A DNA stretch of 64,000 nucleotides, taken from Vibrio penaeicida (GTDB lineage Bacteria > Pseudomonadota > Gammaproteobacteria > Enterobacterales > Vibrionaceae). Of this stretch, positions 1,596 to 39,190 are shown one piece after another. The notes under the pieces are model-generated. The model saw only the letters and a list, made by a program, of their open reading frames with translations, did no database searches and was not told the origin of the DNA. A program made the position numbers and the translations under genes. Position 1 is the first letter of the stretch; every line of letters starts with the position of its first letter. The DNA is taken from NCBI RefSeq assembly GCF_019977755.1, contig NZ_AP025145.1:620001-684000 (forward strand), read 5' to 3'.

Positions 1596-1597
1596 TA

Positions 1598-2089
1598 TCA
1601 AGGCTCCTTCGAAAACACTTCGACATTAATCAGTTGCCACACCATATAGTCGTTAAATATTTGAGGTTGGAGTTCTTCATGGTGATCTTTCGGTAAAATA
1701 AGCCACAATGGGCCTTTTCCACGAACCGACATTTTTTTACCGTTGTCTTCCCAAGCTAATATCGGGGCAAATTGACGAATGTGTTCGAAATCAAGCGTTA
1801 CTTCGTACTTGTCGAGTGCTTTCAAAGTCAGCCACGTACCTTTTGCTTTGGCATCGTTTAGGATGTCTTCTAGTTTAGGTCCTTTATAGGTATGGGCTTC
1901 ATTCGTCCATGGCGTGTTGGTGGTAATTAATAATTGAGGAAATGATTTTATGTTTTCTAAAGTATAACTGGCAGGGTTTTCAACGTCACCAGTAACAGTT
2001 AACACTTTATTTTTACCTTGCGCGGAGGTAAGTCCCGAAAAAACAAGTAAAAATATAAGGACATAGAAATTTTTAAGTCTTACGCGCAT
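1598..2089 (-). CDS. Secreted molybdopterin-oxidoreductase-fold protein lacking the cysteine ligand
   Basis: 163 residues with a signal peptide (about 1-23), then a compact domain resembling the oxidoreductase molybdopterin-binding (sulfite-oxidase-like) fold: LTVTGDVENPASYTL, then a segment around YKGPKLEDIL, and GPLWLILP near the end. In catalytic relatives a cysteine ligates molybdenum. This protein has no cysteine at all, so it is unlikely to be a redox enzyme and may be a periplasmic ligand or cofactor sensor. A good GGAGGG ribosome site precedes the ATG. The diguanylate cyclase follows directly, suggesting a two-component periplasmic input for c-di-GMP synthesis. The family call is fairly sure; the sensor role is inference. 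Confidence 0.75.
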   Translation of the reverse strand: MRVRLKNFYVLIFLLVFSGLTSAQGKNKVLTVTGDVENPASYTLENIKSFPQLLITTNTPWTNEAHTYKGPKLEDILNDAKAKGTWLTLKALDKYEVTLDFEHIRQFAPILAWEDNGKKMSVRGKGPLWLILPKDHHEELQPQIFNDYMVWQLINVEVFSKEP

Positions 2090-2652
2090 ATTCCCTCCAT
2101 GAGAATTTTAAAACCAAAAGTACTAAACAACTTATTATTTTAAGGTCAAATTCCGTTTTATTGTATGAATTTTGAGATTTGTCTTGTAATCAAGAATAGC
2201 ATGCGGTTCACCAATTATCCTGAACTATACAGTTATTTAGTGATCTTTAGTCTTGTTTGGAAAACTTGAAAATCGGTGGGGAAGTTCTGGCTTTTAACAA
2301 TTAGCTCAATAATTGTTTTTGCAACAATGAGTTCGATCCAAAAGAAAATATGTCTAACGCGGAAAATAGGTTTTTTATTATGGGGATGAGAACGAAAATT
2401 AATATATATGCATATTATTTAATGTGAATTCCTACGATATTCACTAAGTTAAACTATATTAAAAGGTTAGAAATATAATTTTTAGTAATTACTTTTGAAG
2501 TTGATCACACATGAGTAGCAAGTATTAACGAATTGGAATCAATATCACCGGTGACTGAGTTAAAATTAGCCCCCGTTATATTGTGACACTCAATCCATAT
2601 CATTTTTGGATTTTCACTTTCAGCTCAAATTGAAGAGGATACTCTCCCTTAG
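2090..2652. other. Divergent AT-rich intergenic region
   Basis: Separates the minus-strand cyclase unit from the plus-strand sensor/permease unit, so it should hold both promoters. It is AT-rich, with runs such as AATATATATGCATATTA near 2400. I found no convincing operator, sigma-54 site or small gene. Confidence 0.6.
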
Positions 2653-4812: not shown

Positions 4813-6047
4813 TTTTTGATGAAAACTTTAGCCTCCGCCCTGTTCCTTATTACGCAAGAAAGCGAACGTTGGCTTTGGGTCTCGTGCTGGTTGGTCTTAC
4901 GTTCTTCTCTGCTAGTATGCAAGCGGGTGGTGTGGTTTGGGGGGGATTATCAACGTCAGACTTTATCTGGGTAGTATTGGCGGGCAACGTAATGCTGGCT
5001 TTGTACGCAGGCTTACTCGGTTATATCGGCTCAACAACAGGGCTATCAACTCATCTTCTGACCCACTTTTCGTTTGGGCACAAAGGTTCTTGGCTTCCCT
5101 CTTTGATATTGGGTGGTACGCAAGTTGGTTGGTTTGGTGTTGGGGTTGCCATGTTTGCCATTCCCGTGAGTAAAGTTATTGGGGTGGATGTGCGCATTCT
5201 GATTGGAGTAAGTGGCTTGCTAATGGTGAGCACCGCCTATTTTGGTATGTCGGCCCTCATATTTCTCTCTGCTATCGCGGTTCCAGCCATCTTATTATTT
5301 GGTGGTTATTCCGTTATGTGTGCACTAGAAACATTTACCGTGGGTGCGCTATACGGTGAATTGAGTTCTATTCCAAACAAGCTAAGTACAACAGAGGCCT
5401 TAACCTTAGTGGTGGGGACTTTTATTAGTGCCGCCACCTTAACTGCTGACTTTGCGAGATTTGCCAAAAACCACAAAAAAGCCTTGTTCATTACGGTATT
5501 GGCTTTCTTAATTGGCAACTCGGTAATGTTTGTGTTTGGCGCATTGAGCAGCTCGAGTATTGGGTATGCGGACTTGTTTGATGCCATGCTGGCACAGGGG
5601 CTTTTGATTCCTGCCATTGTTGTTTTAGGTTTGAATATATGGACAACCAACGACAATGCTTTGTATGTGTCTGGACTGGCATTTTCGAACATCACGCGCT
5701 TACCTAGTCATCGTTTGTCGGTGCTTAACGGGTTGCTTGGCACCTTATTTGCGCTTTGGCTTTACGATCACTTTATTGAATGGCTACACTTTCTTTCTCT
5801 CGCCATTCCTCCCGTTGGTGGTGTGATCATTGCTGACTTTTTAATGCGTCGTCATCAATATCAAGATTACGCCAGCGTTGAATTTCAAGAAGTGAATTGG
5901 TTGGGCATTTATGCGTTTGTGATTGGTATCATCGGAGGCGCTATTCTACCCGGAGTTGTCCCCGTGAATGCCGTAATCATAGCTATGTTGTCCTACTGGG
6001 TGTTACATTTAAAGCCTGTGAAAGCGGCAATATGCAGAGCGTCGTAA
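4809..6047 (+). CDS. codB: Cytosine permease CodB-like (NCS1 family)
   Basis: 412 residues, about 12 membrane helices. It closely matches E. coli CodB in stretches I recognise, including LGLTFFSAS-type, GSWLPSL, GGTQVGWFGVGVAMFAIP, LTADFARF, GLNIWTTNDNALY and IPPVGGVIIAD. Predicted to import cytosine or a related nucleobase with a cation. No cytosine deaminase gene lies beside it, unlike the usual codBA pair. Instead it sits between a GGDEF sensor and a sigma-54 activator, which suggests a regulated nucleobase or amine uptake role rather than simple salvage. Substrate identity is inferred from the family. Confidence 0.9.
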   Translation: MIFDENFSLRPVPYYARKRTLALGLVLVGLTFFSASMQAGGVVWGGLSTSDFIWVVLAGNVMLALYAGLLGYIGSTTGLSTHLLTHFSFGHKGSWLPSLILGGTQVGWFGVGVAMFAIPVSKVIGVDVRILIGVSGLLMVSTAYFGMSALIFLSAIAVPAILLFGGYSVMCALETFTVGALYGELSSIPNKLSTTEALTLVVGTFISAATLTADFARFAKNHKKALFITVLAFLIGNSVMFVFGALSSSSIGYADLFDAMLAQGLLIPAIVVLGLNIWTTNDNALYVSGLAFSNITRLPSHRLSVLNGLLGTLFALWLYDHFIEWLHFLSLAIPPVGGVIIADFLMRRHQYQDYASVEFQEVNWLGIYAFVIGIIGGAILPGVVPVNAVIIAMLSYWVLHLKPVKAAICRAS

Positions 6048-6088
6048 TCACAGGACCTAACTCCAGACATTAAAAGGCAGTATTCAGA

Positions 6089-7429
6089 ATGGATTCTCAA
6101 GTCGTACTGATTGAAGATGATGATATCGTTCGCCAAGCAACCAGCCAATGGCTACAACTCGCAGGGTTTTCCGTTACCGAATATGCCGATGGTACGTCGG
6201 CATTGGAAGGGATTTCGCCTTCATTTACAGGTGTTATTGTCAGCGATGTAAGACTGCCTGATTACGATGGCTTGGCATTAATGAATGCTTTGCTGAATCG
6301 AATTCCTACGGTGCCTATTGTATTGGTTACTGGGCACGGTGATGTAGACATGGCAGTAAAAGCCCTTCGTGATGGCGCGTTCGACTTTCTTGAGAAGCCG
6401 TTTGATCCTGATCGCCTTGTTGATACTGTGAGCAATGCGTTCTCTTCATTACAAGCCAATCAAGAAAGCCAGCAAAGGCTCGAATACTTGGATCAGTTAG
6501 ACGGGTTAGAGCAAGTTCTGATTGGGCAAAGTGACGTGATGGTGAATTTGCGTCAACAATTGGCGAAAATAGCGATGATGGACACAAATGTCATCATTTA
6601 TGGTGAAACAGGGTGTGGGAAAGAATTGGTGGCGAATTGCCTCCATAACCTCAGTACACGAACTGGTCACCGATTTGTGCCCATTAACTGTTCGGCGATT
6701 CCTGAGAATTTGTTTGAAAGTGAGCTATTTGGTCATGAAGCTGGCGCATTTACTGGTGCCGGTAAACAACGAATCGGTAAGTTAGAGTATGCCGACAAAG
6801 GGACTCTGTTTCTGGATGAAATTGAAAGTATGCCTTTGTCTATGCAAGTGAAAGTACTCAGAACGTTACAGGAACATACCGTCGAAAGGGTAGGTGCAAA
6901 TAACCCGATTCAAATCAATCTGCGAGTTGTTGCGGCGGCGAAAGACAATCTATTTGGCCACTCCAATTTCCGTCAGGATCTCTATTATCGGCTTAATGTT
7001 GCACAACTTTCGCTTCCCCCTCTTAGGGAGCGCGATAAAGACGTCGTCATTTTGTTCGAACATTACACCCGTCAGGCGAATCCAGAATGTCGCCCAGCGA
7101 CGCTCAGTGATAAACAGACACTATTGAGTTACCGTTGGCCGGGCAACGTTCGAGAGTTACGAAATGTGGCGACGCGTTTTGCTCATGATGACCTTTCGGT
7201 CGCTGATATTCTGTCGGAGTCGGCATCGTTATCATCAGAACCTGTTATAAACACCTTATCTTTAGCAACCCAAGTGCATAACTTTGAACGTAAAGTGATT
7301 GATAAATCGTTACGTGAGCACAAGGGGAACATCACCCAAGTAATGGCTGAATTGGATCTTCCAAGGCGAACACTTAATCAGAAAATGCAAAAATACGGTT
7401 TAAGCCGGCAGGGCTACCTTTCTAAATAA
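6089..7429 (+). CDS. Sigma-54-dependent response regulator, DctD type
   Basis: 446 residues: a receiver domain (1-120; phosphoacceptor D53, acidic E9/D10 pocket, T81 and K103), an AAA+ domain with Walker A GETGCGKE (172-179) and the sigma-54-contacting GAFTGA loop (219-224), and a Fis-type helix-turn-helix at about 405-446. Predicted to activate sigma-54 promoters when phosphorylated by a DctB-type kinase. A DctB-type kinase is encoded at 19043-21211, and a sigma-54 promoter with an upstream palindrome lies before the TAXI transporter at 15.7 kb. It is the third gene of the sensor-codB unit (41-nt gap). The direct repeat that bounds the fucosidase island begins 25 bp after its stop. Confidence 0.92.
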   Translation: MDSQVVLIEDDDIVRQATSQWLQLAGFSVTEYADGTSALEGISPSFTGVIVSDVRLPDYDGLALMNALLNRIPTVPIVLVTGHGDVDMAVKALRDGAFDFLEKPFDPDRLVDTVSNAFSSLQANQESQQRLEYLDQLDGLEQVLIGQSDVMVNLRQQLAKIAMMDTNVIIYGETGCGKELVANCLHNLSTRTGHRFVPINCSAIPENLFESELFGHEAGAFTGAGKQRIGKLEYADKGTLFLDEIESMPLSMQVKVLRTLQEHTVERVGANNPIQINLRVVAAAKDNLFGHSNFRQDLYYRLNVAQLSLPPLRERDKDVVILFEHYTRQANPECRPATLSDKQTLLSYRWPGNVRELRNVATRFAHDDLSVADILSESASLSSEPVINTLSLATQVHNFERKVIDKSLREHKGNITQVMAELDLPRRTLNQKMQKYGLSRQGYLSK

Positions 7430-7453
7430 CCGATTTAAAAAGCTTTATACCCT

Positions 7454-7531
7454 ATCTGAGATGAGCGAAATTTCCTGATAGCTCAGTGGAGTTTCGCTCA
7501 AAGGTCAGATAACTCATCTCAAGTCATATTT
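7454..7531. repeat. Left copy of a ~79-bp direct repeat flanking the fucosidase island
   Basis: Aligned by hand with 15449-15527: about 66 of 79 positions match, with one gap. Shared blocks include ATGAGCGAAATTT, TCAAAGGTCAGATAA and TCATCTCAAG. This copy also holds a perfect 9-bp inverted repeat, TGAGCGAAA (7462-7470) and TTTCGCTCA (7492-7500), resembling the activator-like palindrome before the TAXI gene. The repeat lies just after the DctD-type gene; the other copy lies just before the sigma-54 promoter region. Confidence 0.85.
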
Positions 7532-8114
7532 CATTAGCCTGTTGTTATTTTCGACAGTGAAGATCATTGACGTCTCCGATTGCCTATTGAGATCAATATT
7601 GCATTGTGCATGAAATTATATGTAACGAAGTGGTTTTTTACTCATTTTGAAGTCTGATTTTTTGATGACAACGCATAAGTGTATGAAGAATCAACCAATG
7701 TTAAGTTGATGGAAACATCATAAGACTTGGTATTTAAATAACCTCCCGAAATCAAATATATCAATAAATATATTTAAACTCATCACGTTAATGTGGGTTT
7801 TACTCAATGTAGATACCTTTCATCCTGTCATTAATACGTGCATTTTTGCGCATGAGTTAAAGCTTGTACTTACGTGATATGCATCATTATTGCAAATATA
7901 AAATTAAATTTTATATTTGCATTCTTGGAGTCCCGCCCATACTTAAATTCGTGGGAATCATTCTCACTATTGTCCATAAATGATGACAGCGGGATTGAAA
8001 GGGCTTCCGTGAATTTCCTTTCTTTTGCGTCAAAATGGACAGAAAAAGGCGCATATTTTGCGCGAAAAATTGAATAAGGTTTAGTCACAACAAACTCAAG
8101 GAAGAGGTATTTTC
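7532..8114. other. AT-rich leader region of the first fucosidase gene
   Basis: No credible gene. It contains the 31-bp palindrome listed separately at 7891-7921 and an imperfect palindrome at 7951-7967 (GTGGGAAT-C-ATTCTCAC). The fucosidase promoter should lie here. Confidence 0.6.
7891..7921. promoter_or_regulatory. Perfect 31-bp palindrome upstream of fucosidase gene
   Basis: Two 15-bp arms, TGCAAATATAAAATT and AATTTTATATTTGCA, are exact reverse complements around a single A. No T-run follows, so it is not a classical terminator. Its position about 195 bp before the start codon fits an operator for a dimeric regulator or an mRNA leader hairpin. The cognate regulator is unknown. Confidence 0.6.
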
Positions 8115-11100
8115 GTGAAGCTGAATTATTTACCGTTACTTTTGTCTGCTTTGGTCTCGCAGAACATTCTGGCCGCCGAGCCGGAAGATGTTCTTCCAGT
8201 GCCATCAGAGAGACAACTATCGTATCTTGATAATGAGATGAATGCATTTTTTCATTTCAGCCTTAATGGGTACTACAACCGCGAATGGGGAAATGGAACA
8301 GAAGATCCTGAAATATTCAACCCTCACCAGTTCAATGCAGACGAGTGGGTACAAGCTGCAAAAGATATGGGTGCGAAAAATATCATTTTGGTTGCCAAGC
8401 ACCACAGTGGTTTCCATCTATTCGATAGCCCTTATTCTGACTATGACGTGGCAAATACACCTTGGGGAAGAACTCAGACGCCACCGCGAGATATGATGAA
8501 AGAGGTCAGAGACGCTGCGATTGACAAGGGCATTAAATTTTCTGTCTACTTGTCCCCGTGGGATCGTCACCATCCGAACTACGTTGTTTATAGAGACGAC
8601 TACTCTCGTGAAGATGACTACGATCAAGCGATGAAGATTTATGACGATTTTTTCTCCAACAGTTTGCAGTATGTCCTTGATAATTATGGTCCGATCCATG
8701 AAATGTGGTTTGATGGTGCCGGCACGGGGCCTCAATTTGGTCGGACCGGCTTGGATTTCGAGCGCTTTATCCAAACGATCAGGAATAGGTCACCTGAAAC
8801 AAACATAGCAATCGTTGGACCAGACATTAGATGGGTTGGCAATGAACACGGAACAGCACCGGAAAATGCTTGGAGCATCCACCCGCTTTCTGACCGTGAC
8901 GACAGATACAACGAAACTGGTGTGGTATTAGATGGTCGCTTCAGAGGAATGTCCTCTTCGGAGCGTTTGAACTTTTATCCTAATGAGTGTGACACGCCTA
9001 TCCTAGAAGACGATCACGGGCATATTAAGTGGTTCTGGTGGGATTCTCATCGGGTAAGGAGTCAGGATACACTGTTTAATACTGTTTATTTTGACTGCGT
9101 TGGTCATAACAGTAGCTTGCTGCTCAATTTGTCTCCAGATACCGAAGGTAAAATTCCTCAAAATCAGTCGGTTGCTGCAAAAGCCCTGGGTGATTCCATT
9201 CGCATGACATTTTCTAACAACCTTCTTTCCGGTGCGTCAGTTAGTGCGAGCAGTATCTATGAATCGACGTACAATCCGAGTAAGGTCCTTGACGGTAATA
9301 AGAACACCTACTGGGCGGCGCAAGATAAAAGTGGATGGCACCATACACCTAGCGTCTCTATTCAGGAAGAATCGTTAACATTTACAATGGACACTCCGAT
9401 CAGCTTTGATGTGTTTTCAATTTCTGAACCCATTTTTAAGGGGCAACGTATTACTCACTTTTCAGTGCAGTCCCGTTTAAATGAAGGAGAATGGAAAACC
9501 ATCGTTGATAAAGGGCTTATTGGAACCAAGCGCTTAGTCAAACTCCCTAGCCAAGTGATTGCAGACGAGCTCAAGGTGGTAATTGATGGATCGCGAGATG
9601 TGCCGCTCATATCAGAAGTGGGTGTTTATAAACACGAGCAAAGTAAAGTGGACGTTACATTTAGCCCATCTGAGACACTTCAGCCGCAACCATTTGAAGT
9701 GACGCTTACCTCCCCAATAGATAATGATACAATCTACTATACAACGGATGGTTCAGAGCCTACGTACAACTCACCGGTTTATACAAACCCAATTTCCATT
9801 TCTCAGCCAACGACTATTAAAATACTCAGCCGTTCAGCGGGAATCAAAAGCAGCAAGCAATATTTCTTGGGTACAGCTAAAAACCTGGCGATAGACTCTC
9901 GTGCAGTGGTGTACCAATCTAGCGTTCATGCTTCTGGTGCAGGTCCAGAGCGGGCTGTTGATGGTAATGTCAGTGGTCATTGGGGGCATCGTTCTGTTAC
10001 CCATACAGGAGAAGCCGCAGGAGAAGCTCAAGACCCGTGGTGGGAAATAGATTTAGGGCGAGAAGTCTTTGTTAGTAACATTGTTTTGCATAACCGAACC
10101 GATTGTTGTTCTGAACGATTGGACAACGTGACGGTTCTTGCTCATTTTGAGCCGTTAAATAGCAAGGTGCCACTTCAGGTCAAAAATCATCAAGGTGTGT
10201 TTGTAGGTAACACGGGCGAAAATGTCGGTAGCAGTGTATCGATTCCGGTAAATAGGCAGTCTCGTTTTATACGAGTTCAGGCGGAAGGCAGTGACCGCTA
10301 CTTATCACTTGCAGAAGTACAAATAATGGGAATAGAGAGCAGCGATATTGTTCATAACGTCGCCAAGAATATGTATACGGTACAAAGCTCAAATCTTGGC
10401 GGCGAAGATACATCGAATAAAGCTGTTGATGGTAATACAAATGGCAATTTTAGAAATGGATCAGTGAGTCATACCAGTGAGAACGGAAGTGTAGGTGATA
10501 CATGGTGGCGTGTGGATCTAGGTGAATCTAAACCCATTTCCCAAATCCGGATCTTTAACAGGACGGATTGCTGTTCAGATCGTCTAGCGAATTTCGATGT
10601 GTTGGTATCAAACAACCCGAATATTGGAAGCAATGTGGCTTGGAGTCATTACCAAGGGCAACCTGTTGGTGACTCATTGAACTTAAATCTCAACAACGTA
10701 CAAGGTCGTTATGTAACGTTAAAAAAACGCGACAACACTATTCTTTCGCTTGCTGAAGTTGAAGTCATGTCAACTGAACGGAGTCTTGGTTTGAACGTAT
10801 CAACCTTTAAGCAGGCTTCACAAAGTTCGGAACATAGTTCTGGAGCGGCTGCTTCACGGGCAGTGGATGGTATCGATAGTGGTATTTGGGGGCATGGTAG
10901 CGTTTCCCACACAGGAGATAATGACACAAATGCATGGTGGCAGGTCGATTTAGGTGACAAGCGCACTATAGGATTGGTAAAACTCTTAAACCGTACCGAT
11001 TGTTGTGGAGATAGGCTGGAAAACCTTCGTGTTCATATAAGTGATAGCTCGTTTGGTAATGCGACGAATGAGGATATTATGGCACGTGATGATGTGGTGA

Positions 11101-11246
11101 CGGTTAACTACAGTGGTCCAACTAAAGCAGAAATGGATATTGTAGCGGGTTACTCAGGTCGTTATCTGCGTATCAGTCGAGATGGTGTGACCGAACCTTT
11201 GCACATAGCTGAAGTAGTGGTTATTGAACCCATCGTTGGAGATTGA
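8115..11246 (+). CDS. Secreted GH29 alpha-L-fucosidase with three F-type lectin modules
   Basis: 1043 residues. Signal peptide (about 1-21), then a GH29 catalytic domain (about 25-350) with KHHSGFHLFDS (95-105) and the probable nucleophile D200 in MWFDGAG. A discoidin-like domain follows (about 355-505), then a chitobiase-C-like fold (about 515-590; IYYTTDGSEPTY). Three F-type lectin domains (about 595-735, 740-890, 895-1040) each show the fucose-binding signature H...RTDCC..RL. It should release L-fucose from algal or host glycans outside the cell, with the lectin domains anchoring it to fucosylated surfaces. The start is GTG with an AGGAAGAGG ribosome site. The gene ends at a strong terminator and converges on a second fucosidase. 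Confidence 0.9.
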   Translation: MKLNYLPLLLSALVSQNILAAEPEDVLPVPSERQLSYLDNEMNAFFHFSLNGYYNREWGNGTEDPEIFNPHQFNADEWVQAAKDMGAKNIILVAKHHSGFHLFDSPYSDYDVANTPWGRTQTPPRDMMKEVRDAAIDKGIKFSVYLSPWDRHHPNYVVYRDDYSREDDYDQAMKIYDDFFSNSLQYVLDNYGPIHEMWFDGAGTGPQFGRTGLDFERFIQTIRNRSPETNIAIVGPDIRWVGNEHGTAPENAWSIHPLSDRDDRYNETGVVLDGRFRGMSSSERLNFYPNECDTPILEDDHGHIKWFWWDSHRVRSQDTLFNTVYFDCVGHNSSLLLNLSPDTEGKIPQNQSVAAKALGDSIRMTFSNNLLSGASVSASSIYESTYNPSKVLDGNKNTYWAAQDKSGWHHTPSVSIQEESLTFTMDTPISFDVFSISEPIFKGQRITHFSVQSRLNEGEWKTIVDKGLIGTKRLVKLPSQVIADELKVVIDGSRDVPLISEVGVYKHEQSKVDVTFSPSETLQPQPFEVTLTSPIDNDTIYYTTDGSEPTYNSPVYTNPISISQPTTIKILSRSAGIKSSKQYFLGTAKNLAIDSRAVVYQSSVHASGAGPERAVDGNVSGHWGHRSVTHTGEAAGEAQDPWWEIDLGREVFVSNIVLHNRTDCCSERLDNVTVLAHFEPLNSKVPLQVKNHQGVFVGNTGENVGSSVSIPVNRQSRFIRVQAEGSDRYLSLAEVQIMGIESSDIVHNVAKNMYTVQSSNLGGEDTSNKAVDGNTNGNFRNGSVSHTSENGSVGDTWWRVDLGESKPISQIRIFNRTDCCSDRLANFDVLVSNNPNIGSNVAWSHYQGQPVGDSLNLNLNNVQGRYVTLKKRDNTILSLAEVEVMSTERSLGLNVSTFKQASQSSEHSSGAAASRAVDGIDSGIWGHGSVSHTGDNDTNAWWQVDLGDKRTIGLVKLLNRTDCCGDRLENLRVHISDSSFGNATNEDIMARDDVVTVNYSGPTKAEMDIVAGYSGRYLRISRDGVTEPLHIAEVVVIEPIVGD

Positions 11247-11266
11247 ACCAACACTTGAAGGTAAGG

Positions 11267-11293
11267 AGGAGGCTAACTAAGCCTCCTTTTTTT
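11267..11293 (+). terminator. Terminator of the first fucosidase gene
   Basis: AGGAGGC, loop TAACTAA, GCCTCCT, then TTTTTT. Perfect 7-bp stem beginning 20 bp after the stop codon. Confidence 0.9.
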
Positions 11294-11667
11294 ATCTGAA
11301 AATAAAAAAGCCTGACTTAGGTATCGGGCAAAAAGTGATATCTGGTCGTGCGTTGTGAAGTTCTACTCACTTTCAGCATGTTGGTGTGCAATATAGTGAA
11401 GTATTTATACCGCAAGGCTCGTTGAGTTGGTTGTCCCGACCAAAATGCGTACTAGCGCACTGGAAATCATGTTCAGATAAATAGACAGACTGCGATAGTC
11501 AATATCGACTAAAAACTAACCAAGCGACCTGAACAAGGGCTTCTACGACTTTTGCTCATGTTTCCTGCCATCTAATTGGTGGTTAGATCTCGTGCATTCT
11601 TCAGCTCGGATGCAGGTATCCAAAGTCGTCATCATTACATATTGGAAAGGGCTTGGTATTAAACTGC
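11294..11667. other. Non-coding stretch between convergent fucosidase genes
   Basis: No gene with a ribosome site or family signature. The sequence looks like degraded intergenic repeat material of the type recognised more clearly at 11668-11736 and 15187-15446. Confidence 0.5.
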
Positions 11668-11736
11668 GTTCTTTCTCGGGTACTGAAACAGAAATGAGCC
11701 TCTGAATCCTGCATCTTGACGTCACCTAGGCATATA
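11668..11736. repeat. Degenerate intergenic repeat end related to 15187-15446
   Basis: Shares GCGTT.TTTCT.G, ACTGAAACAGAA and ATGAG with 15388-15420. Its right end (GCATCTTGACGTCACCTAGG) resembles the reverse complement of the left end of the 15187 element (CCCAAGTAATCTCAAGATGC). This suggests two decayed members of one inverted-repeat-ended, MITE-like family. The left boundary is unclear. Confidence 0.5.
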
Positions 11737-12011
11737 CAAATATGAATAAGTATTTGATCAGTATCGCTGATTTCCTTGTCACATCTACGATGTTAGTTGT
11801 TTATTGAGTAGAACAACTGCACACCCAGCCTCTGCCTTGTTCAAATAACCCACAACTAGTTGTAAAAACAGAGACGAGAAAGTCTTCAAGCGAGTTCATA
11901 GCAAGGCATACTTTGCCTGCGCAAACTTAGAACGGCTATAGATCTTAATTATTATTACTCTAGTGGGAGGTGAAAGCGCTGGGTTTTTGGGTTTGTGGGA
12001 TATATCGGTAG

Positions 12012-12041
12012 AAAAGCCAGTGATGTAAAATCACTGGCTTT
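12012..12041 (-). terminator. Terminator of the second fucosidase gene
   Basis: AAAGCCAGTGA and TCACTGGCTTT form an 11-bp perfect stem around TGTAAAA, lying 40 bp beyond the minus-strand stop. The gene to its right is read leftwards, so this is a 3' hairpin. Confidence 0.8.
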
Positions 12042-12080
12042 GATTTGGTTAGGTATTTTTACTTTTATATCTGAAAGTTA

Positions 12081-14912
12081 TTACTCAATCTCAACTTCCG
12101 CGAAGCTTAGTACGCCAGTATTTTCTTTTCGAATTAAGACGTGCCTTGCTGAAACGGTTGGAATAAGTACTTCGGCTACATCGCTGATTACATTGACCTT
12201 AATAACATGCTTTGATGCATTAATGTTTTGGCTTAATGAAGCCGTTGTATCAGGAAGGTCATCATACAACATGATGTATACATCATTGGTTCTTGTTAAA
12301 CAGCAATCAGTTCGCGAATGAATTGTGATTTTGTTGATAGCCTGAGTATTGCCTAGATCCACGCTCCACCATGGTTCAGCCTCACTTTGAGTATGTGTAA
12401 TTGTCCCTGTGCCGAAGTATTTACCAACAACGCCATCAACTGCTTTTTCAGCATATCCACCTACGAGTGTTGAGCTTTGTGAAGCATTTTGGTTGAGCGC
12501 CAAGTTATTTGAGACATCAGGGGCTTTCAATACGATAACTTCTGCGAGAGAGAGAATACCTTGACCCTCAATCTGCACGCGGATATAACGACCATTCAGA
12601 ATTGAGGAAATGTTCCAAGACTTCCCTACAGCATCACGACTGTATTGAGTAATATTTGGATCATTTTTAAGCTGTTCAAGTGTTTTCCCCTGCATTGAGG
12701 TATCGGACACAAACACATAGACATCTTGAAGCCTGCGGAAACAGCAGTCAGTGCGATTAAGCAACGTAATATTGGTAAACGCTTCCTGCGCACCAAGGTC
12801 AATTTCCCACCAAGGGTTGAGCTCGTTCGCTGTGTGTGTCACGGATCCATTGTGGTAGTTACCATCAACGTTTTGGTCAATGGCGCGCTGGGCGCTGCCG
12901 CCATATTGGGTAGAGCTCTGGGTCGCTGTGCCATTTACGGTAAGGTTTCGTGAGTATTGGAGTACCTCTATTTCTGCAGTATTCAGTACCCCATAATCTG
13001 CACTTTGAACTTTTACGTAGCGTGCATTGCCATTGACTCTCGAAGAGAGCACACGTCCAGATTCACTTTTATCCAGCAACGCAATGTTTTCAATTGCCTG
13101 TAGATTACCTGTTGAATCCCAGAGCGAATAATCAATCGGGGAATCACTCCAGTGAACTGCAATTTTATTCAGTCGATCAGTGCAACAATCTGTGCGGTTC
13201 CACACGCGAATTTCATCGACATGATGAGTGCTTTCCAAATCAACAGACCACCAAGGTTGATCCTCTGTCTGCGTGTGTTGGAGCGAACCCCTTGAAACGT
13301 ATTCTTGGTTAACCAAGTACTGGTTTTCACCTGAATAGTCGCCATCGACGGCTTTATTACTGACAAGACCACCAAAGGTTGAACTTTGAGAAGTGGTTTT
13401 CCCAAACGCGATATTGTTACCGGGAATTTTCTGATTTATAAATACCAATTCATCTTTGATTTCATTGATATCTTTCATGTGTTCTCTGATAAATTCTGGC
13501 ATGGTTCCAGCTTGTACAATAGGAAGGTTCAGCAGGAATGTGCCATTGGGTGTAAGCGTTGTTTCGTAGAGAATTTTTGCAAGAAAATAAGGATCTTTTG
13601 GACCCCCTGAAGCATTAAACGAGAACCAGTTACCCGCAGAAATGCCAGAGTACATAGTGTTGAACCCTTTGACATGAATAAATTCGGGATCCAGTCCATC
13701 AGCTAATGTTTCTAGTGACGTTAAGTCTGCAGTGTCGTTCGAGTATTCCTTATCATTATTCACAATTATTGTTGATGGTGATATGTGACGGATAAAGTCA
13801 CGCAGATCTTGATAAGGGACATAGTCATAAGATGCAATCTGTCCCCATGCGTCAAACCACAGTAAAGGTACCTCGCCATATTCCGTCAACAGCTCGCGCA
13901 ACTGATTTTTAATAAATAATGGATCTTGCGTCCGCTTCGTCCAGTTAATTACTGTCAGCCCATTGCTGGTATCAACACCTTCCGGTCTTGGAGCTGTCGA
14001 TGTCGTGTTTATCTTTGGATCGCGTCTGTCCCATATAGAAAAATATATCGCGGGTGTTACGCCCACTTCCCTAAAAGACTCCATGTACTCGGCAACAACA
14101 TCACAATCACAAGGTGAGTTTAGAGAATTATGATCGGTGTATTTCGTATCCCAAAGAGAAAAGCCATCATGGTGCTTTGCAGTAAGCACGGCATAGGTCA
14201 TGCCAGCTTCTTTTACGATATTCGCCCACTGGCGAGTGTCTAGATTTGTCGGGGAAAAGTTTGATACTGGAACGAAAGGATCTGCCCACTGCCTGTAATC
14301 ATAGGTGGACATATTGTAGTGCAGGAATGCACCATATCGGTGTTCATCAAGGAACTCTTTTACAGGGAGGGGCGGAAGGGTCTCGTCACCGAATATTTCT
14401 ACTTCAGCAAGTGATAGATAGCCGTTATCCGGCTTTTTAACCATCACGTACTGATAATTTTCAGACACTGCTTGTGAAACGATATCGTTTGTGTTGTCAG
14501 AATAAGAAATTGACCGTACACCATTGTGATTGTTCAACTCAGTAACAGTCATCTCTGACATATCAAAGTTGGAGAGATAAACATTAAAATTGCTATTCCG
14601 CTCTTCGCAGCAATCATTGCGAAAATAGATCTTTATCTCTTTAAGGTTCTTGCTAGTTCTGAGGTCAACTTGCCACCAGGGTTCGATCTCATTATTGGTA
14701 TGTGTAACTGAATCAAAATTGTAGTTTTGGTCAGTGCGCCCGTCTATAGCCCTTTCAGCAGTTCGACTAGCATAATCTGAGCTTTGCGTTGCTATACCCG
14801 CGAGTGCGTAATTTCGTTTATCTCCTGTATTTGCTGGTGATGCAATTGCACCTCCAGCAAACAATAGCATTGCGCCGGATAGCAAGATTGGTTTTAAGAA
14901 TGCCAAATCCAT
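12081..14912 (-). CDS. Secreted GH29 alpha-L-fucosidase with four F-type lectin modules
   Basis: 943 residues from the ATG at 14912, chosen because AAGGAG lies 8 nt before it and a clean signal peptide (about 1-25) follows; an ATG 30 bp upstream lacks this. Order: F-type lectin (about 33-176, RNDCCEER), GH29 catalytic domain (about 182-500; KHHDGF at 246-251, probable nucleophile D354 in LLWFDAWG), then three more F-type lectins with RTDCC signatures (about 572, 720 and 867). The N-terminal lectin and the missing chitobiase-like domain distinguish it from its convergent neighbour, so they are distant relatives rather than a recent duplication. Predicted to remove fucose from extracellular glycans. 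Substrate linkage is unknown. Confidence 0.9.
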   Translation of the reverse strand: MDLAFLKPILLSGAMLLFAGGAIASPANTGDKRNYALAGIATQSSDYASRTAERAIDGRTDQNYNFDSVTHTNNEIEPWWQVDLRTSKNLKEIKIYFRNDCCEERNSNFNVYLSNFDMSEMTVTELNNHNGVRSISYSDNTNDIVSQAVSENYQYVMVKKPDNGYLSLAEVEIFGDETLPPLPVKEFLDEHRYGAFLHYNMSTYDYRQWADPFVPVSNFSPTNLDTRQWANIVKEAGMTYAVLTAKHHDGFSLWDTKYTDHNSLNSPCDCDVVAEYMESFREVGVTPAIYFSIWDRRDPKINTTSTAPRPEGVDTSNGLTVINWTKRTQDPLFIKNQLRELLTEYGEVPLLWFDAWGQIASYDYVPYQDLRDFIRHISPSTIIVNNDKEYSNDTADLTSLETLADGLDPEFIHVKGFNTMYSGISAGNWFSFNASGGPKDPYFLAKILYETTLTPNGTFLLNLPIVQAGTMPEFIREHMKDINEIKDELVFINQKIPGNNIAFGKTTSQSSTFGGLVSNKAVDGDYSGENQYLVNQEYVSRGSLQHTQTEDQPWWSVDLESTHHVDEIRVWNRTDCCTDRLNKIAVHWSDSPIDYSLWDSTGNLQAIENIALLDKSESGRVLSSRVNGNARYVKVQSADYGVLNTAEIEVLQYSRNLTVNGTATQSSTQYGGSAQRAIDQNVDGNYHNGSVTHTANELNPWWEIDLGAQEAFTNITLLNRTDCCFRRLQDVYVFVSDTSMQGKTLEQLKNDPNITQYSRDAVGKSWNISSILNGRYIRVQIEGQGILSLAEVIVLKAPDVSNNLALNQNASQSSTLVGGYAEKAVDGVVGKYFGTGTITHTQSEAEPWWSVDLGNTQAINKITIHSRTDCCLTRTNDVYIMLYDDLPDTTASLSQNINASKHVIKVNVISDVAEVLIPTVSARHVLIRKENTGVLSFAEVEIE

Positions 14913-15186
14913 TTGGGTACTCCTTTGAGTAAGCTTTTTCATTGATCAACGATGTTGTCCGTTAGTTCTATAACCTTTAAGCCCATAAGACACAACTAGT
15001 ACAAACCAAACTTAATGTAGTATGCTGTAGTTTTGTGTGTTTTGTTTGAGCTTCATGCGGCTATTTGGCATGTTATGTTCGTTTTTTAGGCTATCTTATA
15101 GTTGTATTCATTGCAAATAAAATAGATTGTTTCATATATGAAATTATCCGGTGATCGGGTAGGTAGATTTGTATAAATGGATTAGC
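14913..15186. other. Upstream region of the second fucosidase gene
   Basis: AT-rich, no gene seen. It should hold the minus-strand fucosidase promoter. It ends at the MITE-like repeat starting at 15187. Confidence 0.5.
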
Positions 15187-15446
15187 TATACCCAAGTAAT
15201 CTCAAGATGCTCGATTCAGCGAGAATTAACTGGCTTTCAGGTAAGGCACCGATTTGAAGAGCGAGTGGCTCTAAATCAATAATCGGCAACACAGTATGAA
15301 AACCAGTGAGGCTCCCCCTCGAGAGCACATATTCTGTCCCATTTTCTTCGTCAAATAACATGGAAAGGAGTCGTCATTTCTCTGCGTTTTTTCTTGAACT
15401 GAAACAGAATATGAGGGTATGAACGTGCCAACTGAGGTTACTTAGT
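15187..15446. repeat. MITE-like degenerate Vibrio intergenic repeat (~260 bp)
   Basis: Begins TATACCCAAGTAATCTCAAG and ends CTGAGGTTACTTAGT. The outer 15 bases are imperfect inverted repeats (about 11 of 15). The interior contains ACTGAAACAGAATATGAG, shared with the element near 11.7 kb. It encodes no protein. Its right end stops two bases before the right copy of the island-flanking direct repeat, placing it exactly at the island boundary. Confidence 0.55.
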
Positions 15447-15448
15447 CA

Positions 15449-15527
15449 ATCTGTAATGAGCGAAATTTTGCCGATAGCTTGGTGGAATTGTGTTCAAAGG
15501 TCAGATAATTCATCTCAAGCCATATTT
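15449..15527. repeat. Right copy of the ~79-bp direct repeat flanking the fucosidase island
   Basis: Partner of 7454-7531, about 84% identical by hand alignment and in the same orientation. The inverted repeat that is perfect in the left copy is decayed here. It lies about 25 bp before the palindrome that precedes the TAXI-TRAP sigma-54 promoter, so it belongs to the transporter's regulatory region. Confidence 0.85.
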
Positions 15528-15549
15528 AACAAAGAATTTACATAAAACG

Positions 15550-15605
15550 CGATGAGCAAGATTTTGCTCATCGAATTTAACTCGTATAAGCGGAATTTTG
15601 CTCAT
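15550..15605 (+). promoter_or_regulatory. Predicted enhancer (upstream activating) sites for the DctD-type activator
   Basis: A near-perfect palindrome at 15550-15573 has TGAGCAAGATTTTGCTCA as its core and CG/GAT extensions. A half-site TTTTGCTCAT follows at 15596-15605. The palindrome centre lies about 120 bp before the predicted transcription start, the usual place for an activator of sigma-54 RNA polymerase. Similar TGAGCGAAATTT blocks occur in both direct-repeat copies. Confidence 0.75.
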
Positions 15606-15654
15606 TTAGATAGGGTGTTGAGTTTAATTCTATATAAAACAATAAGTTAAGTTT

Positions 15655-15670
15655 TGGCGCGTATGTTGCT
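15655..15670 (+). promoter_or_regulatory. Sigma-54 promoter of the TAXI-TRAP operon
   Basis: TGGCGCG-N4-TTGCT matches the sigma-54 consensus (TGGCACG-N4-TTGCW), with the invariant GG and GC at correct spacing. Transcription should start near 15681, about 80 bp before the solute-binding protein start. Confidence 0.9.
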
Positions 15671-15763
15671 ATAGGGAATGGAAACAACAAACGCTCACAG
15701 GATTCAATTAAGCGATCGCGCTTGAAAGAAAAGGTGAGCCAATAACCCTACATGGAGCGTAAC

Positions 15764-16780
15764 ATGTTAAAAAACAAAATCGTAAAATCTCTTCTACTCG
15801 CCACCACACTTGCGGCTTCGGTTTCTGGTGTCGCATCAGCAGCAGAAAATCGCAGTTACATTTTAGCAACAGCATCGACGGGCGGTACTTACTACCCAGT
15901 TGGGGTTGCATTGGCAACACTAAGTAAAATTAAGCTGGAGCCTAAGCATAAATTCGCCCTATCTGCCATCAGTTCAGCAGGGTCGGGTGAAAACGTAAAA
16001 CTGCTTAGAGAAAACGAGGCACAGTTTGCCATTCTTCAGGGCTTATACGGTGCTTGGGCATGGAATGGCGAAGGCAAAGTGAAACAATCTGGTCCTCAGA
16101 AAAATTTACGCTCTGTCACCATGCTTTGGCAAAACGTTGAGCATTTTGTTGTTCGTTCTAAGTTTGCAAAAACGGGAACAGTGAGCGATTTGGCGCAGAT
16201 GAACGACAAGAAATTCTCTATTGGTAAAAAAAATTCGGGTACGGAAGGATCCGGTCGTCAGATTATGTCTGGCTTAAACGTTGACCCAGATAAATTTAAC
16301 CTCGCCTATCTGGGCTATGGCGCCAGTGCCGATGCGCTACAAAATGGCGCAATTGATGGTATGAATACCCCTGCTGGTGTACCGGTTAGTGCAGTTACTC
16401 GTGCTTATGCCGCGCTTGGTAACCAGATTCAAGTATTGAACTTTACTGACGCTCAAATCAAAGAAGCCAACAATGGATACGAATTGTGGACTCGCTTCGT
16501 GATCCCTGCAAACACTTACCCTGGTCAAGACAAAGACATCAATACAATTGCGCAGCCTAACTTCTTAGCGGTTCGTGACGACATTAGCGATGATGATGTT
16601 TACATGCTGACTAAAACCATTTACGAGAACCTAACTTTCCTAAATGGTATTCACAAAGCAACCAAAGCGATGGCGATTGAAAAAGCAATTTCTGGTTTAC
16701 CTGTGCCATTACACCCAGGTGCGGCTCGTTACTACAAAGAGCAAGGTATTACTATTCCATCACATCTTGTTGTTCAGTAA
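15764..16780 (+). CDS. TAXI-family TRAP transporter solute-binding protein
   Basis: 338 residues: signal peptide (about 1-26), then a periplasmic binding domain beginning RSYILATASTGGTYYPVG, the hallmark opening of TAXI binding proteins, with GSGENVKLLRENEAQFAILQ and GYGASADAL. It captures a substrate, probably a carboxylate or amino-acid-like acid, and delivers it to the fused permease downstream. The ATG at 15764 is chosen because GGAG lies 6 nt before it; an upstream in-frame ATG at 15752 overlaps that ribosome site. The gene follows a sigma-54 promoter, so uptake is inducible. The substrate cannot be read from the sequence; the dicarboxylate-type regulators and neighbouring lhgO make a 2-oxo or 2-hydroxy diacid plausible. 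Confidence 0.92.
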   Translation: MLKNKIVKSLLLATTLAASVSGVASAAENRSYILATASTGGTYYPVGVALATLSKIKLEPKHKFALSAISSAGSGENVKLLRENEAQFAILQGLYGAWAWNGEGKVKQSGPQKNLRSVTMLWQNVEHFVVRSKFAKTGTVSDLAQMNDKKFSIGKKNSGTEGSGRQIMSGLNVDPDKFNLAYLGYGASADALQNGAIDGMNTPAGVPVSAVTRAYAALGNQIQVLNFTDAQIKEANNGYELWTRFVIPANTYPGQDKDINTIAQPNFLAVRDDISDDDVYMLTKTIYENLTFLNGIHKATKAMAIEKAISGLPVPLHPGAARYYKEQGITIPSHLVVQ

Positions 16781-16805
16781 CCGATAGCCCAATAACCCTC
16801 ACTGC

Positions 16806-16848
16806 ACCCGAGCCGAATTCCCCCCGGCTCGGCTCGGGTACAGTTTTT
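16806..16848 (+). terminator. Intra-operon terminator/attenuator
   Basis: ACCCGAGCCG (16806-16815) pairs perfectly with CGGCTCGGGT (16830-16839), followed by CAG and TTTTT. It lies between the binding-protein and permease genes. Partial termination here would give more binding protein than permease, a common arrangement for binding-protein transporters. Confidence 0.85.
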
Positions 16849-16871
16849 CTGCCGTACCTGAGGAAAATATC

Positions 16872-18989
16872 ATGGAAGAAAAACAAGACGTCGATTTGGC
16901 GCAATTTGAGCTGCCTATAAGAACGGATTTTCCGTGGCTAACGACGTTTATCACGGCTGTAGGCATTGTTCTGGCTGGGTTACATATTTGGTTTAATACG
17001 TTAGCGACACTGCCGGAACTGTGGGTTTCAGCCACTCACTTTGCCGGGTTTTCCTTAGTGTGCGCTCTGCTTTACCCTGCAAGAAAAAGTTGGAAGAAGA
17101 GTCGATTTGCTCTCGCCATTGATATGATTATTGCCGCTGCTGCGGTGTCCTGTTTGATATATATCCCTCTCGCAGAAGACGCTTTGTATGATCGTGGCGT
17201 GAAATTCGTTACGTTGGATTGGGTGTTTTCGCTGATGAGCATTGTCATTGTGCTAGAGGTGATTCGACGCACGATCGGCTGGTTCATCCCAGTGCTTATT
17301 ATCATCTCACTGACTTACGTGGTTTGGTGGGGGCAATGGGTTCCCGGTGTTTTTCACTTTCCAGGGTTGAGTGCAGAAACCTTACTTTATCGCAGTTTTT
17401 ACAGTTCAGAGGGCATGTTCGGGACGATCTCCAGAATCAGCTGGAGTTACGTATTCATGTTCATTCTCTTTGGCGCATTTCTAGTCCGGTCTGGGGCGGG
17501 TGATTTCATTATTGATGTTTCCCGTGCGGTCGCAAACAAAGTGATTGGCGGTCCTGGGTTTGTGGCGGTTATGGGTTCTGGCTTAATGGGATCTGTCTCA
17601 GGTTCCAGTGTGGCCAATACAGTTTCAACGGGTGTTATTACCATCCCGCTTATGCAGCGAGCTGGTTTTCCTTCAAGGTTTGCTGCAGGTGTCGAAGCTG
17701 CCGCTTCAACGGGTGGGCAGTTGATGCCGCCAGTAATGGGAGCCGGCGCTTTTATCATGGCATCTTACACACAGATTCCTTATGTCGATATCGTGGCAGT
17801 GTCCATTGTTCCTGCCATGATCTACTTTCTCTCTGTCGCGTTCTTTGTTCGGATTGAAGCAAAAAGAAGTGGCGTGCACCAAGTAGAAGCGAACAGTGTG
17901 CCAGTGCTTAAAGTATTGGCTTCGGGTTGGCACTACCTTATCCCTCTCGTTGTGCTGGTTTACTTACTCGTTTCTGGCTTTACACCAACGTATGCAGCGG
18001 GTATCTCTATCATATCGGTCGTTGTATCCTCTTGGCTGTCGCCGAATAAAATGGGCGTTAAGGCTATTTTTGAAGCATTGGCTCAAGGGTCGAGAAACAT
18101 GGCAACCACTGCTGTGCTTTTAACGGGTATCGGGCTTGTGATTAACGTGATCAGCACAACGGGTGTAGGTAACACGTTCTCGCTAATGATCAATGAATGG
18201 GCGAGTGGTTCCCTGATGATTATGTTAGTGCTCATTGCCTTAGCATCATTGATTCTGGGAATGGGTTTACCTGTTACCGCGGCGTATATTGTACTCGGTA
18301 CCCTGTCGGCTCCTGCTCTTTATAACTTGATCGCTCAAGACCAACTGCTAGAAATGCTGACGTTAGGGCAACTACCAGAGCAAGCAAAAGCTATATTTAT
18401 GCTGGCAGCGCCTGATCAACTTGCGTTGTTGAATGCACCGATGGCTGTAGAGAAAGCGCAAAGCTTGATTGCATTGGTTCCGGCGGAGTTTTTACCCACG
18501 TTACTTGAGCAAGCGATAGGGATAGAGAAAGTGGGCCTAGCCTTACTTGCGGCGCACTTGATTATCTTTTGGTTATCGCAAGACAGCAATGTCACGCCGC
18601 CAGTTTGCTTAACCGCGTTTGCAGCCGCAACCATTGCACGAACCCCTCCGATGCGAACGGGTCTTACCGCATGGAAAATTGCAAAAGGGCTGTATATCGT
18701 GCCTGTTTTGATGGCCTATACCGCGTTGGTGAGCTGGGATCTTATTTCGGTGATATCGATTGGTGTGTTTTCTGTATTCGGAGTTTATGCACTTATCGCT
18801 GCTCTAGAGGGGTATTTGGAATCTCCTTTGAGCTGGTGGTTAAGAGCTGTTGTGGCGGTTCTTGGTGTTGTGATGATGTGGCCAGATGTTCCATTAGTAA
18901 TACGTGTTGCCGCTGTCGCTGTGTTTATCGGCTTGTTTTATTACAGCTACCAAAATAACAAAGATATAGGGGAGATCGAGACCAGCTAA
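16872..18989 (+). CDS. TRAP transporter fused permease (DctQ-DctM, TAXI type)
   Basis: 705 residues with many hydrophobic helices; the small (4-helix) and large (12-helix) TRAP subunits are fused in one chain, as usual in TAXI systems. Recognisable large-subunit stretches include GSGLMGSVSGSSVANTVSTG, STGGQLMPPVMGAGAF and GMGLPVTAAYI. It should import the substrate captured by the preceding protein using an ion gradient. The start is preceded by GAGGAAA. It lies 91 bp after the binding-protein gene and depends on read-through of the intervening hairpin or on a local promoter. The kinase gene is convergent on its 3' side with only about 50 bp between stops. Confidence 0.93.
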   Translation: MEEKQDVDLAQFELPIRTDFPWLTTFITAVGIVLAGLHIWFNTLATLPELWVSATHFAGFSLVCALLYPARKSWKKSRFALAIDMIIAAAAVSCLIYIPLAEDALYDRGVKFVTLDWVFSLMSIVIVLEVIRRTIGWFIPVLIIISLTYVVWWGQWVPGVFHFPGLSAETLLYRSFYSSEGMFGTISRISWSYVFMFILFGAFLVRSGAGDFIIDVSRAVANKVIGGPGFVAVMGSGLMGSVSGSSVANTVSTGVITIPLMQRAGFPSRFAAGVEAAASTGGQLMPPVMGAGAFIMASYTQIPYVDIVAVSIVPAMIYFLSVAFFVRIEAKRSGVHQVEANSVPVLKVLASGWHYLIPLVVLVYLLVSGFTPTYAAGISIISVVVSSWLSPNKMGVKAIFEALAQGSRNMATTAVLLTGIGLVINVISTTGVGNTFSLMINEWASGSLMIMLVLIALASLILGMGLPVTAAYIVLGTLSAPALYNLIAQDQLLEMLTLGQLPEQAKAIFMLAAPDQLALLNAPMAVEKAQSLIALVPAEFLPTLLEQAIGIEKVGLALLAAHLIIFWLSQDSNVTPPVCLTAFAAATIARTPPMRTGLTAWKIAKGLYIVPVLMAYTALVSWDLISVISIGVFSVFGVYALIAALEGYLESPLSWWLRAVVAVLGVVMMWPDVPLVIRVAAVAVFIGLFYYSYQNNKDIGEIETS

Positions 18990-39136: not shown

Positions 39137-39164
39137 AAGCCAGTCTAAATTTTGAGTAAATCAT

Positions 39165-39190
39165 AAAAAGCATCCATTGGGTGCTTTTTA
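39165..39190 (+). terminator. Terminator of the nitrobindin-like gene
   Basis: AAAAAGCATCC, loop ATTG, then GGTGCTTTTT, about 28 bp after the stop codon. One base bulges in the stem. Confidence 0.85.

Follow-up and report, generated by a model that had tools for sequence, protein, structure and literature searches.

One report on Acinetobacter concerns large islands moved by natural transformation (PMC8787482), and the locus considered here shares several features with islands that are exchanged by homologous recombination. It lies in a 64,000-nucleotide stretch of the Vibrio penaeicida genome (contig NZ_AP025145.1, positions 620,001 to 684,000 of the forward strand), which we call the window and in whose coordinates all positions are given. 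There, an island of about 8 kb carrying two genes for GH29-type fucosidases, fuc1 and fuc2, separates the gene of a DctD-type sigma-54 response regulator (dctD) from the genes of a TAXI-class TRAP transporter. As in exchanged islands, no integrase was seen, the flanking genes are conserved, the block is absent from sister genomes, and a tract of low divergence extends into the flanks; unlike such islands, this one has at its borders a diverged duplicate of the control region of the neighbouring transporter.

The individual parts of the locus also have described relatives. Like the GH29 fucosidases with carbohydrate-binding modules (3mo4/3ues, 4zrx, 8ayr), fuc1 matches 1,3/4-fucosidase structures; unlike them, it has extra F5/8-type-C domains, and fuc2 is more divergent. 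The regulatory side resembles the DctB/DctD sigma-54 transporter systems in having a DctD-type regulator, a cluster of enhancer-like sites and a −24/−12-type promoter ahead of a TRAP transporter, but it differs in that the transporter is of the TAXI class and lies near an L-2-hydroxyglutarate oxidase gene, and in having three sites with a recurrent 34-bp spacing of the last two. The gene of the characterised V. cholerae TAXI protein, VC0430, adjoins argR and mdh (PMC11574862). Finally, as in other vibrios with brnQ-type or GGDEF-type genes at this position, unrelated genes are found between dctD and the enhancer-like sites; the difference is that a control segment is duplicated here, whereas none was seen in the three brnQ/GGDEF gaps checked for repeats. 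No published description of this island, of the gap or of the control region was recognised in literature searches. What is new here is the empty site, the finding that the repeat is an enhancer-like segment, the right edge formed by an element resembling a miniature inverted-repeat transposable element (MITE), the recurrent use of the gap and the evidence of exchange between lineages.

Results

The island and its immediate borders comprise the following features.

6089 to 7429, + strand: dctD, DctD-type sigma-54 response regulator of 446 aa with Response_reg, Sigma54_activat and HTH_8 domains
7454 to 7531 (78 nt), + strand: left repeat copy, diverged, first enhancer-like site lost; starts 24 nt past the dctD stop
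8115 to 11246, + strand: fuc1, GH29 alpha-L-fucosidase of 1043 aa with CHB_HEX_C and F5/8-type-C domains (PF01120, E 7.6e-37)
12081 to 14942, − strand: fuc2, divergent GH29-type fucosidase of 953 aa with F5/8-type-C domains (PF01120, E 6.1e-34)
15449 to 15527 (79 nt), + strand: right repeat copy, native, carrying the first enhancer-like site
15752 to 16780, + strand: TAXI-family TRAP solute-binding protein (TIGR02122 above cut-off)

An initial annotation, made from this DNA alone, had claimed a same-orientation repeat of about 79 bp and about 84% identity that encloses two fucosidase genes and repeat-like DNA, and had proposed that an island of about 8 kb entered an ancestral dctD/TRAP locus. 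The repeat is there as described: the two copies lie about 7,996 bp apart in the same orientation and agree at 66 of 79 alignment columns (83.5%), and between them are the two PF01120 genes and a dispersed element. In the whole genome (6.78 Mb) these two copies are the only matches to the repeat at E ≤ 0.001, with two weaker ones at E ≤ 10, so that the widespread repeat which the annotation had named as a contrary outcome was not what was found. Its 21-base core pattern occurs twice in the window at up to three mismatches (0 of 100 shuffles), the repeat has no match in 72,556 plasmid records, and positions 6000 to 16800 have no Rfam match at E ≤ 0.1.

Close relatives lack the island, although synteny around the site is otherwise intact. 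Among 196 genomes of the genus, the repeat was found at E < 1e-10 in four only, the next best match having an E-value of 0.006: this genome and the one we label G171 have two copies (about 8.0 kb apart in G171), and G136 and G175 have one each. In G136 and G175, dctD (98% and 95% identical) is followed directly by the TAXI gene (99% and 97%) across gaps of 343 and 358 bp without a fucosidase. This is the predicted empty site, dctD beside TAXI with a single repeat copy, and it also shows that relatives do not always carry the fucosidases. G171, by comparison, has the gene order found here, with the two fucosidases (99.3% and 99.6% identical) between dctD and TAXI.

The wider distribution agrees. 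TAXI relatives at E ≤ 1e-80 were present in 80 of the 196 genomes, and all 80 loci (79 and the window) were used; 69 have a dctD-type gene upstream on the same strand, and the 11 that lack such a match at 55% identity do not enter the gap measurements. In 57 of the 69 genomes at most 600 bp separate dctD from TAXI, and in 12 the gap exceeds 1 kb, namely in this genome, G171 and ten others; the 8.3-kb fucosidase block occupies it in this genome and G171 only. Full-length fuc1 occurs in 2 of 227 genus genomes (E ≤ 1e-25), while two others, G061 and G082, encode a different protein that matches only residues 29 to about 374 of fuc1 (34–36%). For fuc2 the counts are 2 of 196 genus genomes (E ≤ 1e-60) and, among 394 genomes of the order, this one alone, G171 evidently lying outside that sample. 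The empty sites and the predominance of short gaps thus back the proposed entry of the island into an ancestral locus, and parsimony would place the gain after the split from G136.

The right copy of the repeat is the native one, because it is closer to the single copy of G136 (75 of 79 columns, as against 64 of 79 for the left) and has fewer changes of its own (one, compared with eight in the left copy alone). The left copy is then either decaying or from elsewhere; a single column groups it with G175 against the right copy with G136, which is too little to decide its origin. The direct repeats also raise the reverse history, in which the block was ancestral in the clade but G136 and G175 later lost it, possibly through recombination between the repeats, a process that leaves exactly one copy, as seen in both. 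We consider this very improbable: it has to accommodate a block confined to 2 of the 69 dctD-TAXI genomes and a full-length fuc1 equally rare in the genus, a G136 copy that is of the right type and shows no visible chimera, and a divergence between the island and G171 far below that of the flanks.

That divergence sets the history of the island apart from the history of its surroundings, as the following tract shows.

6601 to 15600, no strand: tract of high identity to G171, delimited by sliding identity, its ends at about 6.6 kb (within dctD) and about 15.6 kb

Within the island (7532–15443), 69 of 7912 positions differ from G171 (0.87%), compared with 267 of 5100 (5.2%) in the left flank (1501–6600) and 86 of 2679 (3.2%) in the right flank (15600–18279). 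Third codon positions show the same in sharper form, with 36 of 1996 differing in the fucosidases and 264 of 2388 across five genes of the flanks (one counted in part; Fisher p 7e-38); noncoding positions differ at 23 of 1918 in the tract and 31 of 878 in the flanks (p 8e-5). Inheritance from a common ancestor predicts that island and flanks have diverged to about the same degree. Since the island has diverged far less, its exchange probably postdates the separation of this genome's lineage from that of G171, and the simplest reading of the vehicle would be homologous recombination in the flanks, in either direction or into both genomes from a third source.

The right repeat copy forms part of a control region upstream of the TAXI gene with four recognisable elements.

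15456 to 15475, + strand: first enhancer-like palindrome (UAS1), 17/20 to the consensus, at −296 of TAXI
15552 to 15571, + strand: second enhancer-like palindrome (UAS2), 19/20, at −200
15586 to 15605, + strand: third enhancer-like palindrome (UAS3), 17/20, at −166 and 34 bp after UAS2
15655 to 15669, + strand: sigma-54-type promoter of TAXI, TGGCGCG-N4-TTGC, at −97

The three palindromes approximate the consensus ATGAGCAAAATTTTGCTCAT and are putative upstream sites of the DctD-type activator. In about 350 bp upstream of TAXI at the 80 loci there are 189 matches of at least 14/20, while 200 single-base shuffles averaged 2.4 and never exceeded 11, a comparison that is partly circular in that the consensus was drawn from the same loci. 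Two or more sites occur at 68 of the 80 loci and three at 48, and 50 have a pair exactly 34 bp apart. A strict sigma-54 pattern is present in 5 of the 80 upstream regions, one of these probably by chance, and a relaxed pattern, run without a shuffle control, in 71. Nine of the TAXI-TRAP loci (L133, L135, L141, L142, L242, L244, L245, L252 and L253), in which neither enhancer-like sites nor an upstream dctD-type gene was found, possibly represent a differently regulated form.

These sites qualify two statements of the annotation. Its view that a regulatory segment was duplicated holds in so far as the repeated segment contains UAS1, the first of three recurrent palindromes, at 17/20; in the left copy the site is lost, the best match to the consensus being 12/20. 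Entry of the island is only a candidate cause of the duplication. The statement that an activator was split from its transporter applies to the genes alone, since all three sites and the sigma-54-type promoter remain beside TAXI.

Similarity to the control region seems to continue past the left copy.

7554 to 7756, + strand: probable degraded continuation of the duplicated control region (UAS2 and UAS3; promoter core absent), by local alignment to 15528–15764

This sequence is collinear with the native stretch through UAS2 and UAS3 and beyond the promoter, the promoter core being missing. Its local alignment score against the right side of this genome was reached in 2 of 500 shuffles; of 541 other windows two also reached it, namely the native stretch of this genome and that of G171. 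Scores anchored at the repeat were equalled, over four scoring schemes, by 1–2 of 400 shuffles and 1–3 of 372 control sequences, and for the G171 left copy by 4–10 of 400 and 4–6 of 372. In a 60-bp ungapped stretch over UAS2 and UAS3, picked after an alignment had been inspected, 34 of 60 positions match, and none of the 372 controls reaches this at any offset (maximum 31). Placed in register with 50 native loci, the same stretch matches G175 at 35 positions, its own right side at 34, G171 at 33 and G136 at 31; distant loci average 27.3 of 60, with one distant vibrio at 32. The tests disagree, as set out below for G136 and G175, yet the duplication probably encompassed the whole control region and extended beyond 79 bp.

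A duplication of this kind bears on how the block arrived. Integration by a single crossover of a circle or fragment carrying its own, diverged TAXI control region would leave the repeats as crossover products, and such an event is expected to place a repeat unit and the island in tandem beside the native control region; the apparent extension of the left similarity through UAS2 and UAS3 and past the promoter fits this as well. On the other side, no donor with both a control region and fucosidases was found in the searches of genus and order genomes, the left copy shows no visible chimera, and the similarity past 79 bp is weak against G136. We regard this as the foremost rival for the origin of the duplication, possible though on balance not probable.

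The left copy may also have a role of its own as RNA. It folds at −28.9 kcal/mol (z −4.98), and the G171 left copy at −26.0 (z −3.89), whereas three native copies fold at only −16.6 to −19.0 kcal/mol (z −1.2 to −2.0). Retention of this copy as a 3′-end hairpin of dctD, no longer as an enhancer, would account for the much stronger conservation of the first 79 bp relative to the stretch that follows. However, no T-run follows the hairpin, covariation within it is not significant (five distinct sequences), and with respect to the folding energy of the 110 nt after the dctD stop this locus ranks 13th of 69, 12 folding more strongly. The left hairpin was therefore rejected as a conserved RNA on the grounds of covariation and rank, and we hold its retention as a 3′ end to be rather unlikely.

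At its other end, the island is closed by a dispersed repeat.

15187 to 15443, + strand: dispersed MITE-like element of a 266-bp family, about 7 bp of the right end missing, from the consensus and its ends
11642 to 11737, + strand: truncated end (about 95 bp) of a MITE-like element, the same end, between the fucosidase genes

The family has inverted ends, TATACCCAAG...CTTGGGTATA, and is short, dispersed and non-coding, no open reading frame (ORF) of 80 aa or more overlapping 15187–15443; these are the features of a MITE. Matches number at least 50 in this genome (contigs C1 and C2), at least 57 in G171 and at least 48 in G136, lower bounds from 40 candidates scored for each of these three, and 14 in G175, all counts including short end matches. 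Of the 23 copies whose ends could be recognised, 18 measure 266 bp, 21 begin and 23 end with TATA, statistics that are partly by construction, as the copies were chosen by their end patterns. The element presumably uses a TA target and may resemble IS630/Tc1-type elements. In the island it abuts the native spacer some 12 bp short of UAS1. This position, the fragment of the same end lying between fuc1 and fuc2 and the dispersal of the element in all four clade genomes searched would be accounted for if the element had moved the block, by inserting beside UAS1 and later recombining with copies elsewhere. Yet no MITE-like element was seen at the left edge, the element leaves the duplicated UAS1 segment unexplained, and with at least 50 matches in this genome the nearness to one may be chance; we judge this role of the element unlikely.

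The interior of the island, apart from the genes, includes two further features.

7532 to 8114, + strand: region preceding fuc1, shared by this genome and G171
12013 to 12041, + strand: terminator-like hairpin between the convergent fucosidase genes, by consensus scan only

In the four genomes searched, 7520–8120 has no match in G136 or G175; the terminator-like scan returned 10 sites in the region, where shuffles gave 6.0 on average. In fuc1, Asp200 and Glu244 align with the D and E of the 1,3/4-fucosidase structures 3mo4/3ues, in an alignment that covers the catalytic and the following domain, and we take them to be the nucleophile and the acid/base, respectively. In fuc2 a WFDA motif begins at residue 362, and a search for an aligned acid/base located none. 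Both proteins have several F5/8-type-C domains and N-termini that by eye resemble signal peptides; both are probably secreted and likely to act outside the cell, releasing fucose from glycans of algae or animals, with a putative role in the utilisation of fucosylated polysaccharides or glycans. About 8,000 candidate relatives were scored for each. Besides its near-identical copy, fuc1 has no relative above 38% identity among the best 120 of 912 matches, the best other match being 35% identical, and the closest relative of fuc2 is 53% identical.

Control of the fucosidases by DctD was considered and rejected. No plus-strand enhancer-like site of at least 14/20 lies in 7430–8115, in 11247–12080 or in the upstream part of fuc2, the best being 13 and 11/20, and a strict sigma-54 pattern, the one run there, is absent from both strands of these three regions, so DctD probably does not control the two genes. 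Ahead of fuc1, a near-perfect palindrome of 31 bp (7891–7921) has a 71% similar partner upstream of fuc2 (15110–15140), possibly as a shared operator, possibly by chance. Foreign composition was likewise dropped as evidence, G+C, G+C at third codon positions (GC3) and codon usage all lying inside the range of the window: GC3 is 0.403 and 0.401 for the two genes (mean 0.433, standard deviation 0.048), and their codon distances of 0.089 and 0.092 are among the lowest of 30 ORFs, a measure on which long genes tend to score low and whose reference set includes both fucosidases. The comparison of G+C and codon bias that the annotation had suggested thus turned up a native composition. No mobility gene was seen in 7430–15751, where the only ORFs above 125 aa are the fucosidases, shorter ORFs and tRNAs not having been searched. 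Nor is there a short, near-identical target-site duplication; the duplication is at least 78 bp long and 83.5% identical.

Fucosidases are one of several kinds of cargo in the dctD-TAXI gap. Among the 12 long-gap genomes, nine have a brnQ-type gene and four a GGDEF-type gene, one of these without BrnQ; the BrnQ (PF05525) and GGDEF calls come from Pfam searches of the V. diabolicus genes, the other genes being relatives of these. In V. jasicida (L032 6717–8027) the gap holds brnQ, and in V. diabolicus (L033 11375–13998) brnQ and a GGDEF gene, in each case upstream of the same enhancer-like sites. Nine of the ten long-gap genomes other than this one and G171 retain three sites within 400 bp of TAXI, and the tenth, L207, retains one (14/20 threshold). 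With brnQ, GGDEF and fucosidase blocks in one gap, several unrelated cargoes have settled there.

The surrounding genes agree with the names given to them in the annotation. Domain searches identify, to the left of the island, a sensor with a solute-binding-protein and a GGDEF domain, a cytosine permease and the sigma-54 response regulator, and to the right the TAXI binding protein, a fused TRAP permease, a histidine kinase and an L-2-hydroxyglutarate oxidase.

16872 to 18989, + strand: fused TRAP permease (TIGR02123 above cut-off)

NCBIfam cut-offs are exceeded by the TAXI protein, the fused permease, the cytosine permease and the oxidase; for the regulator at 6089–7429 none of 25 models (the best 25 of 108) reaches its cut-off, so that it is an NtrC/DctD-type activator by its domains and carries the name DctD by type only. 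In 16 of 17 dctD-bearing loci outside this clade a dctB-type kinase gene lies divergently beside dctD. In this clade the GGDEF sensor and codB (2653–6047) take that place, and the dctB-type kinase gene (19043–21211) stands between the TRAP permease gene and lhgO. Elsewhere in the window, G+C falls to 27% at 39001–40000 (35.5% and 43.2% in the adjacent kilobases).

Discussion

Taken together, we think it likely, with good though not full confidence, that a block of about 8 kb was inserted in an ancestral locus and was later exchanged between lineages by recombination. The ancestral order would have been dctD, then UAS1, UAS2, UAS3 and the sigma-54 promoter, then the TAXI-TRAP genes, and the block with its two GH29-type fucosidase genes would have arrived between dctD and the enhancer-like sites. 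Its right junction, formed by the MITE-like element, leaves the TAXI control region undivided, with DctD presumably acting on it in trans. On the dctD side there is now a copy of at least the UAS1 segment, and probably of the entire control region, in which the enhancer-like site is gone. After the split, the block probably passed from one of the two lineages to the other, or reached both this genome and G171 from a common source, through homologous recombination in the shared flanks: in dctD at the left and around the right repeat at the right. What the sequences show directly is the insertion by comparison with G136 and G175, the repeat, the recurrent sites, the missing UAS1 at the left and the low divergence of the tract.

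Several observations weigh against this account. Some 300-bp windows in the flanks are as similar to G171 as the tract is (98.3% at 5701–6000 and 98.7% at 16801–17100), and selection could in principle slow divergence in the tract, which is less likely since its noncoding parts are conserved too. The 16% divergence between the left and right copies exceeds that between this genome and G171 at the locus, and so leaves two possible histories, a duplication older than the last transfer or a diverged donor. No close donor was found among the relatives scored, and the native G+C and codon usage give no compositional sign of import. As to the longer duplication, the local score was equalled by 110 of 500 shuffles when taken against G136 and by 15 of 500 against G175. 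The partial circularity of the enhancer comparison belongs here as well.

The island is nonetheless real and lineage-specific; the system and the event are of a known, ordinary kind, in a well-documented case. One may speculate further, as a long shot, that the gap between a sigma-54 activator gene and its enhancer sites repeatedly receives cargo, since genes inserted there do not part the enhancers or the promoter from the transporter, and that the degraded control-region copy could give the block a built-in homology arm for exchange by homologous recombination, with no need of a mobility gene.

The locus offers a clean case, with an empty site, a filled site and a second carrier, in which genes for carbohydrate use have entered a conserved transport locus, whose apparent control region has stayed whole, and have then, as it seems, been shared between close Vibrio lineages. 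The presence of cargo of at least three kinds in 12 of 69 gaps, upstream of the enhancer-like sites, makes it testable whether regulatory architecture may steer where acquired genes settle.

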